64,000 bases of DNA from assembly GCA_945860245.1 (NCBI GenBank), contig CAMAPO010000001.1, forward strand, positions 124,001 to 188,000, read 5' to 3'. The notes below the pieces were generated by a model. The model was given only the letters and a program-made list of their open reading frames with translations, did not search any database and had not been told where the DNA came from. Both the position numbers and the translations under genes were made by a program. This document shows, one piece after another, positions 9,032-23,581 of this stretch (positions within the stretch are counted from its first letter, which is position 1; every line of letters begins with the position of its first letter). The stretch comes from Bifidobacterium breve. Its GTDB lineage: Bacteria > Actinomycetota > Actinomycetes > Nanopelagicales > Nanopelagicaceae.

Positions 9032-9538
9032 GTGGCTAAATCAATAATTCTTATTGGTCCTCCCGGTTCTGGTAAGTCAACAATTGGTAGGGCGCTTTCG
9101 CGCAAATTGAATATCTCATTCACAGATACCGATGATCTTATTGAAGTCCGCGCCGGATCGAGTATTTCTCAAATATTTATTGATAGAGGCGAACCTTGGT
9201 TTCGCGAATTGGAGGAAGCAGTTTTGAAAGAAGAGTTAGCCAGATTAGATGGCGTTCTTTCACTTGGGGGAGGAGCACCACTTTCTGAAACCGCGCAAGA
9301 ACTTCTTCGCAGGATTGACGATGCAGTTGTTTATCTCGATGTTTCGCTAGCGACAGCAGCTCCGCGCGTAGGGTTTAATCGCGATCGTCCTCTGTTACTC
9401 AATAATCCACGAGGCGCTTGGCAGGAGTTGATGGATAAACGACGTCCAATTTATGAAGCGCTGGCAACTTATGTAGTGAAAGTTGATGAGCGCGCTCCAA
9501 AGGATATTGTTGCTGAGATCGTTAGACTTACACAATGA
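9032..9538 (+). CDS. aroK: Shikimate kinase
   Basis: Phosphorylates shikimate at the 3-OH with ATP. 168 residues, family length. Walker A is GPPGSGKST near residues 9-17; TDTDDLIE holds the Mg/shikimate aspartates; FRELEEAVLKE and LGGGAPLS are the shikimate-binding motifs; the lid arginine is in NRDRPLL. GTG start. Its stop overlaps the aroB start as ATGA, so the aroK-aroB-aroQ genes are probably translationally coupled. Confidence 0.94.
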   Translation: MAKSIILIGPPGSGKSTIGRALSRKLNISFTDTDDLIEVRAGSSISQIFIDRGEPWFRELEEAVLKEELARLDGVLSLGGGAPLSETAQELLRRIDDAVVYLDVSLATAAPRVGFNRDRPLLLNNPRGAWQELMDKRRPIYEALATYVVKVDERAPKDIVAEIVRLTQ

Positions 9539-21699: not shown

Positions 21700-22406
21700 A
21701 AGCGCCGATAATTCTTGCAGTTGATACCTCTGATTTTGAAACTGCAATCTCTTGGATAGAGGCTACGCAAGAGTCGGTTAGCGTTTTTAAGTTGGGTCTA
21801 GAATTTTTTTTGAATTTCGGCGCCCCAGGTGTAGAAGAAGTTGTAAAGCGTACTGGTGCGCAAATTTTCTTAGATCTAAAGTTGCACGATATTCCACATA
21901 CGGTTTCTGGTTCAGCTAAGGCGATTTCTCATCTCAACCCAATGTTTTTAACTGTGCATGCCAGTGGTGGCCGAGCGATGATAAATGCCGCCGCCCAGGC
22001 GGTACCGAATGTCGCAATTACTGCGGTCACGATATTAACTTCACTTTCTGAATCAGATTTATTTGAAATTGGATATGCAAATCCGGCGCTAGAGAGTGCT
22101 GTCGCTCTTGCCAAGATGGCAGTTGAATCTGGAGCCAAAGCGCTAGTCTGTTCTCCCTTGGAAACCGCAGCGATTCGAAGCGCGGTTGGAAGCGAACCAG
22201 TCATTATTACACCAGGAGTAAGACCTCTTGCAGAGCAAGGCGGTGATGATCAAGTGCGAACTATGACGCCAGGTGATGCGATAGCCGCCGGTGCTAACTT
22301 TGTTGTGATTGGACGTCCAATTACCAACTCCTGGGCTGATGGACCTACAGCGATGGGTAAAAAGGCGCAGTCGATTGCTGATGAAATTCTGACCGCTCTT
22401 GCGTAG
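21696..22406 (+). CDS. pyrF: Orotidine 5'-phosphate decarboxylase (short type)
   Basis: Final step to UMP. 236 residues. The catalytic motif FLDLKLHDIP carries the Asp-Lys-Asp tetrad members; the early AVDTSDFE and late TPGVRPL and FVVIGRPIT bind UMP phosphate. By length and motif spacing it is the E. coli/Bacillus-like type 1, whereas mycobacteria and streptomycetes carry a longer type 2 form. ATGA overlap with pyrD. Its stop codon TAG is part of the proposed -10 element of the next gene. Confidence 0.92.
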   Translation: MKAPIILAVDTSDFETAISWIEATQESVSVFKLGLEFFLNFGAPGVEEVVKRTGAQIFLDLKLHDIPHTVSGSAKAISHLNPMFLTVHASGGRAMINAAAQAVPNVAITAVTILTSLSESDLFEIGYANPALESAVALAKMAVESGAKALVCSPLETAAIRSAVGSEPVIITPGVRPLAEQGGDDQVRTMTPGDAIAAGANFVVIGRPITNSWADGPTAMGKKAQSIADEILTALA

Positions 22407-22409
22407 AGT
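22404..22409 (+). promoter_or_regulatory. Probable -10 element of the mIHF-Gmk gene (leaderless)
   Basis: TAGAGT overlaps the pyrF stop codon and ends 6 nt before the ATG at 22416. It would free the nucleoid-protein/kinase gene from PyrR control. Confidence 0.45.
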
Positions 22410-22415
22410 TAAATA

Positions 22416-23294
22416 ATGCCAATTCCTCCCAAGTTAACTGCAGAACAACGTGCAGCCGCGCTGGCAAAATCGACTGCAGCTCGTCAAGTCAGAGCGGCAA
22501 CCAAGGCTCGGGTAAAGAGTGGAGAGCTCTCGCTTTCAGCCATTTTTGATTTAGCAAAGAGTGATGAGGCTATTGCGAAGATGCGAGTAGTGGAATTGCT
22601 TGAATCGTTCTCAGGCGTAGGTAAAGTTCGTGCGATAGCCACGCTAGATCGTTTACAAATTTCTCAGACGCGACGAGTTCAAGGTCTAGGAATCGCGCAA
22701 CGCAAAAATTTACTTAATGAATTTCCAGATCGTGTTGCAGCGGCGCAGCGCGGAAAATTACTGGTTCTCTCAGGTCCTGGGGGAGTTGGTAAGAGCACGG
22801 TAGCTAAAGCTCTAAAAGATACTAATACATTTTGGGTAAGCGTCTCGGCCACAACGCGCAGCGCCAGACACAATGAAGTTGATGGTGTTGATTACTATTT
22901 CTATAGCAATGATGAATTTGATAGCGCGATTAAATCTGTACTTTTTCTGGAATGGGCGGAATTCGCAGGTAATAGATACGGCACTCCTCGTAAGCCAGTC
23001 GAAGATGCTTTACGTGATGGAAAGAATGTACTTCTTGAGATTGAAATTGCGGGAGCTAAGCAAGTTAAAGAGAGTGCATCGGAGGCGATATTAGTTTTTC
23101 TGCAGCCGCCTTCTTGGGAAGAGTTGGTCTCTCGTTTAGAAGGGCGGGGGACTGATTCACCGGAAAGACGTGCCGCACGCCTTGCTCTAGCGCAGGAGGA
23201 ACTGGCACAGGCAGGTCTATTTGACCTCTCCTTAGTAAATGAGCGAGTAGAAGAGGTCGTCGAACGCCTGATAGGATTAACCAATAATTCGTAG
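22416..23294 (+). CDS. gmk: Fused mIHF nucleoid protein - guanylate kinase
   Basis: 292 residues in one frame. Residues 1 to about 105 match actinobacterial integration host factor (mIHF): [20 protein letters not shown], the DNA-binding [16 protein letters not shown], and [15 protein letters not shown]. Residues from about 113 are guanylate kinase (GMP to GDP): P-loop GPGGVGKS (120-127), [32 protein letters not shown], and the lid segment [11 protein letters not shown]. In mycobacteria and Streptomyces these are two adjacent genes. No in-frame ATG, GTG or TTG lies between residue 61 and the P-loop, so the kinase cannot be started separately by usual codons. Confidence 0.88.
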
Positions 23295-23332: not shown

Positions 23333-23581
23333 ATGGACGGAATCACTAACCCACCAATCGATGAACTTCTCGATAAGAGCGGATCTAAGTACAGCTTGGT
23401 GCTCTATGCCGCAAAGCGCGCCCGTCAGATAAATGCCTATTACTCACAACTTGGTGAAGGCCTTCTTGAATATGTTGGTCCACTTGTCGAAACACACGTA
23501 CACGAGAAGCCACTGTCGATAGCACTTCGTGAAATCAACGAAGGACTTTTGACGATCGAAAATCTCGAACCAACAGCGTAA
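23333..23581 (+). CDS. rpoZ: RNA polymerase omega subunit
   Basis: 82 residues. Helps assemble RNA polymerase by holding the beta-prime C-terminus. [20 protein letters not shown] is the conserved core helix and [18 protein letters not shown] the second conserved block. Start set by AGGAGG at 23322-23327. The order mihF/gmk-rpoZ-coaBC-metK-priA is a conserved actinobacterial block. Confidence 0.93.

Follow-up and report, generated by a model that had tools for sequence, protein, structure and literature searches.

A nucleoid protein and a nucleotide kinase are encoded in one polypeptide in the window, by which we mean the whole stretch of 64,000 nucleotides that was analysed. The gene at 22416..23294 on the plus strand is an mihF-gmk fusion, and its full-length product counts as an mIHF-Gmk fusion and not as an mIHF. 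This fusion is real, conserved and repeated in evolution, and we regard it as moderately novel. From its ATG start the single open frame encodes 292 amino acids and is stop-free across the domain junction. The mIHF domain occupies residues 5-103 (22428..22724, plus strand), where the curated profile NF041260 (actino_IHF) scores 115.2 bits (1.6e-33) against a cut-off of 60 bits, and its H2TH part, residues 33-103, matches PF22525 (H2TH_5; 2.8e-24). An interdomain linker, residues 104-112 (22725..22751, plus strand), lies between both family matches and contains no ATG, GTG or TTG. It is followed by the guanylate kinase domain at residues 113-287 (22752..23276, plus strand), with 209.6 bits for TIGR03263 (2.8e-62; curated cut-off 160 bits), a match to PF00625, and the P-loop GPGGVGKST at residues 120-128 (22773..22799, plus strand). 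The sequence-only reading, which had seen an mIHF domain at about 1-105 running straight into a complete guanylate kinase at about 113-290, is thus borne out. Instead of encoding a free protein of some 105 residues, the frame continues into Gmk; NF041260 is typed as an equivalog_domain model, so the longer frame is no bar to membership of the mIHF domain family, and this domain type suggests that longer mIHF-bearing proteins are known to annotators. The gene lies at position 146416 of a 208-kb contig (G000:C1:146416) and is the only match to the fused-protein query in its genome. On the plus strand between 21696 and 24802 the genes are, in order, pyrF, the fusion, rpoZ and coaBC, and rpoZ has a probable ATG at 23333 with AGGAGG upstream.

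The predicted model of the fused protein has two confident domains (mean pLDDT 87, pTM 0.61), and the pTM is as expected for a flexible domain pair; the lowest block of the model besides the C-terminus is at residues 101-110, with a pLDDT of 66. When compared with DNA-bound sIHF (6bek_D), the N-terminal part gives a Z of 16.1 and an rmsd of 0.8 over 89 residues, and this alignment together with the PF22525 match identifies the H2TH fold of sIHF. The C-terminal part aligns with M. tuberculosis Gmk (1s4q) at a Z of 25.7, an rmsd of 1.9 and 45% identity. Among solved structures, those closest to the C-terminal part are of Gmk, and the N-terminal part is closest to mIHF 6tob and sIHF 4itq/6bek. 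The P-loop, GMP-binding and lid residues of Gmk are all present (G120-T128, S144, R148, R151, Y160, E179, Y188, T190, E208, R240, R244, R255 and N275), and their retention in the sole Gmk match of the genome suggests that the protein has GMP kinase activity. The glycine that replaces serine in the P-loop is found in most of the order, in fused and separate kinases alike.

The mIHF part of the window protein keeps Arg86, Arg87 and the GLG turn, and has Gln at position 89. All fused groups keep the basic pair 86-87, Gln95 and a net charge near +8 in the mIHF part; the turn is likewise kept, with Gly92 present in every fused group and the first glycine lost only in one genus outside the order (f32/g93). 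Most families outside the order have the last arginine of an RR.R motif at position 89, and the separate genes there code for a basic residue at it. Within the order, fused proteins have Q, G, A or K at this position and separate ones Q, R, K or G; since it also varies in the separate mIHFs, the change is not tied to fusion. With this position altered, the DNA affinity of the predicted DNA-binding part may differ. In the closest clade dN/dS is about 0.04 for the mIHF part and about 0.05 for the Gmk part, ratios that are rough since dS is saturated, and that point to purifying selection on both.

The fusion is found beyond the acI bacteria, in other actinobacterial families too. We searched 254 genomes of the order, all at least 70% complete, and nearly all genomes of the window's genus, one-contig genomes included, gave a full-length match that is stop-free between the domains; more than 100 species of that genus are fused. 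The fusion is also present on two named closed chromosomes, those of IMCC26103 and Ca. Planktophila lacus MMS-21-148. At the loci examined, 11 genera of the order are fused (g1, g18, g19, g20, g25-g29, g32 and g33) and six have separate genes (g21, g22, g23, g24, g30 and g31). Across the class 394 genomes were sampled, and there most families gave two matches, meaning separate genes, at times in one frame with one stop. The listed matches run through both domains in f32/g93 and in f34, a family that is probably Microbacteriaceae, where long Gmk annotations occur; NF041260 and TIGR03263 both score over cut-off in one example from each. Single long tblastn matches in Schaalia/Actinomyces were rejected as fusions, as a stop lies between the domains. 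An apparent stop within the match in two genomes (G155 and G182) was also set aside: both are fused (L055 and L054), and the TAA is the gene's own terminal stop.

The sequence-only reading had proposed mapping the spread of the fusion among related genomes on a tree, and doing so reveals repeated origins. A tree of mIHF and Gmk with the linker left out (83 rows, built by a quick method with SH-aLRT support only) requires four changes of state for the fused label, at least three of which are forced by starred branches. Both f34 and f32/g93 are placed apart from the order's fusions, which means that the fusion has more than one origin. For the order itself, the tree allows either a single fusion that was later split or two fusions. 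The genes mihF and gmk, the latter coding for an essential enzyme, are neighbours in most of the actinobacteria sampled. Where they are unfused in the order, they are separated by short gaps (g21, g22, g23 and g30), by a TGA that overlaps the kinase start in the ATGA manner (g31 and most of g24), or, in part of g24, by an in-frame TAG followed directly by ATG. In several other families the two genes share one frame with a single stop between them. A single substitution or a small deletion would fuse such adjoining genes.

The window's own genome contains one mIHF match and one Gmk match, with no second copy of either found elsewhere in it, and both functions would thus rest wholly on one chain at a fixed 1:1 ratio. 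It also holds one HU-family protein. An mIHF model scan of 46 genomes included 38 with the fusion, spanning all three fused lineages, and each time the only convincing mIHF was in the fused frame, with a score slightly below the cut-off in a single f34 genome (G581). The scores were 114-128 bits in the window's genus, 83-87 in g25 and 56-79 in f34, and 95-141 for the four separate genes in the scan. Three genomes, G318 and G418 (f32, g63) and G028 (f5, g5), have gmk without an mIHF over the family cut-off, and mIHF seems to have been lost outright in these lineages. Two phage proteins, BFVD A0A8S5SC97 and A0A8S5VG65, are named Integration host factor MIHF and have predicted structures that match the N-terminal domain; some phages may carry mIHF-like proteins.

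A promoter TAGAGT had been proposed just upstream of the gene, and it is supported in that place as a predicted -10 box. The hexamer (22404..22409, plus strand) is a predicted -10 element of the TANNNT type at -12 to -7 from the ATG, and it overlaps the pyrF stop codon (22404-22406). TANNNT occurs at exactly -12 in 51 of 56 loci of the genus, where shuffled sequences gave a mean of 1.1 and a maximum of 4. The distance to the pyrF stop varies among these loci, whereas the position of TANNNT is conserved. This conserved placement fits a predicted -10 box with transcription starting at the ATG, that is, a leaderless mRNA. Throughout the window TANNNT peaks at -12 before candidate starts (12 cases, versus 0-5 at other offsets), with plus-strand examples at 9535, 22416, 24807 (metK), 26013, 27922, 30767 and 43248; leaderless promoters seem common in this genome, judging from a count made on the window.

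We suggest that neighbouring mihF and gmk genes lost the stop between them and came to encode one 31-kDa bifunctional protein. Its mIHF (H2TH) domain would bind DNA, and the kinase domain, carried on a short linker, would make GDP from GMP. The gene would be driven by its own promoter, probably leaderless and overlapping the end of pyrF. A bifunctional polypeptide produced by stop loss between coupled neighbouring genes, with its stoichiometry locked, is in our judgement the probable explanation; that there is a single uncleaved product, that both activities are present and why the fusion was kept are the steps that we infer. In M. smegmatis, where IHF binds DNA only transiently, the essential protein has been replaced by fusions to EGFP, mNeonGreen, PAmCherry or HaloTag with growth near wild type (PMC10028186), and a permanent partner on mIHF should therefore be tolerable. 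That mIHF accepts partners at its C-terminus is the probable reason why the fusion was tolerated. M. tuberculosis cannot do without mIHF, one of its ten most abundant proteins, and deletion of mihF there required that the downstream gmk and rpoZ be supplied (PMC6155035). We believe that the main effect of fusion would be to lock together the amounts of two important products, not to site GDP synthesis at the nucleoid. The idea that fusion places the synthesis of GDP or of a (p)ppGpp precursor at the nucleoid finds no support in this analysis and is physically weak. A molecule the size of GDP needs far less than a millisecond to spread through a cell of sub-micrometre size, and thus location alone should hardly matter; the merely transient DNA binding of the mycobacterial homologue (PMC10028186) also speaks against it.

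Several other explanations must be weighed against a bifunctional polypeptide. An assembly error that merged two genes would have undone the sequence-only reading, and the window's genome is indeed split into 47 contigs; however, more than 100 species, one-contig genomes and two named closed chromosomes share the fusion, and the junction evolves like the remainder of the gene. The closed genomes refute such an error, and an assembly or binning artefact is virtually inconceivable. We consider it unlikely that the product is a polyprotein split post-translationally, or that a non-standard internal start yields Gmk as well, with free mIHF and free Gmk in the cells as is the case in other actinobacteria. 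It is true that model confidence, the C-terminus aside, is lowest in the linker, that the sequence and length of the linker differ among genera, and that an in-frame ATG occurs in or near it in many relatives, such as EFMK at -16 codons from the P-loop in part of the genus. Indeed, 73 of 83 relatives have some in-frame start codon within 25 codons before the P-loop, at shifting positions, and internal initiation is possible in those. In the window protein, however, codon reading found no in-frame ATG, GTG or TTG between residue 61 (a TTG) and the P-loop at 120, as had been claimed from the sequence, and scanning the 36 codons that precede the P-loop gave the same result, with one ATC and one CTG as the only rarer starts there. 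Four other fused loci (L017, L021, L043 and L093) also lack ATG, GTG and TTG in these 36 codons. Moreover, the linker shows no conservation at synonymous sites (pS 0.71-0.79 at codons 96-115), which are about as variable as those elsewhere in the gene. There is thus no sign of a common internal start or ribosome site; an internal start for Gmk that is conserved was rejected on these grounds together with its absence in the window and its shifting positions in relatives. Constant separation of the two parts would also make it difficult to account for a stop-free frame over most of an order.

That the mIHF part no longer binds DNA, and serves as a structural or oligomerising extension of Gmk, is quite unlikely. 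The lower mIHF profile scores in f34 (56-79 bits) and g25 (83-87 bits) would be in keeping with it, as would the genomes of g63 in f32 and g5 in f5 that have no mIHF over cut-off, which point to a domain dispensable in some lineages. Yet the mIHF part is as strictly constrained as the kinase (dN/dS about 0.04), the scores of the window's genus (114-128 bits) fall within the separate-gene range, and every fused group retains the basic pair 86-87, Gly92, Gln95 and a positive net charge. The model also overlays DNA-bound sIHF at 0.8 A, and there is no second mIHF to take over. A regulatory link between nucleotide and DNA binding is a more interesting possibility than the siting of GDP synthesis. 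We think it very unlikely that the fusion evolved repeatedly as a link of guanine-nucleotide state to chromosome organisation, with kinase-bound nucleotide or (p)ppGpp tuning the sole mIHF, or DNA tuning the kinase. There is only a slender chance that the fusion is a sensor, in which guanine-nucleotide or (p)ppGpp binding at Gmk alters DNA binding by mIHF, or DNA binding alters the kinase. The same fusion in three separate lineages could mean selection, and regulation of Gmk by (p)ppGpp has been studied in another bacterium, as the title of PDB 4qrh states; but the linker is poorly conserved, the pTM of 0.61 gives no fixed domain interface, and adjacency with a frequently shared frame makes accidental fusion easy.

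With a bifunctional polypeptide as the favoured explanation, abundant freshwater bacteria and, separately, other actinobacterial families must contain equal numbers of a nucleoid protein and a nucleotide kinase that usually occur independently of each other. Nature has thereby set up an experiment: can an enzyme be a permanent attachment of a global DNA-binding protein, and is nucleotide metabolism coupled to the state of the chromosome? Cultures of Ca. Planktophila put the question of the fusion within reach of a test. No paper linking mIHF and guanylate kinase as a fusion was found in a literature search, which had most subscription journals outside its reach.

Compared with actinobacterial IHF (mIHF of M. 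tuberculosis, Rv1388, and sIHF of S. coelicolor, SCO1480), the window protein has the complete domain, the sIHF fold and the RR..GLG motif that is common to both, and its neighbours are like those of M. tuberculosis mIHF, with gmk and rpoZ downstream (PMC6155035). In contrast to these proteins, it has no stop after the domain, the kinase follows, and the third basic residue of the motif is Gln. Relative to bacterial Gmk (M. tuberculosis Rv1389), the kinase is whole, with the P-loop and the GMP-binding and lid arginines, and M. tuberculosis Gmk is its best structural match; it differs in bearing an N-terminal domain of a DNA-binding type, and in its P-loop, GPGGVGKST, which is GPSGVGKST in most families outside the order. 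The fusions of f34 and f32/g93 have the same domain order as that of the window, but they are of separate origin by the tree and have a more diverged mIHF part, and the P-loop of f34 is GPTAVGKGT.
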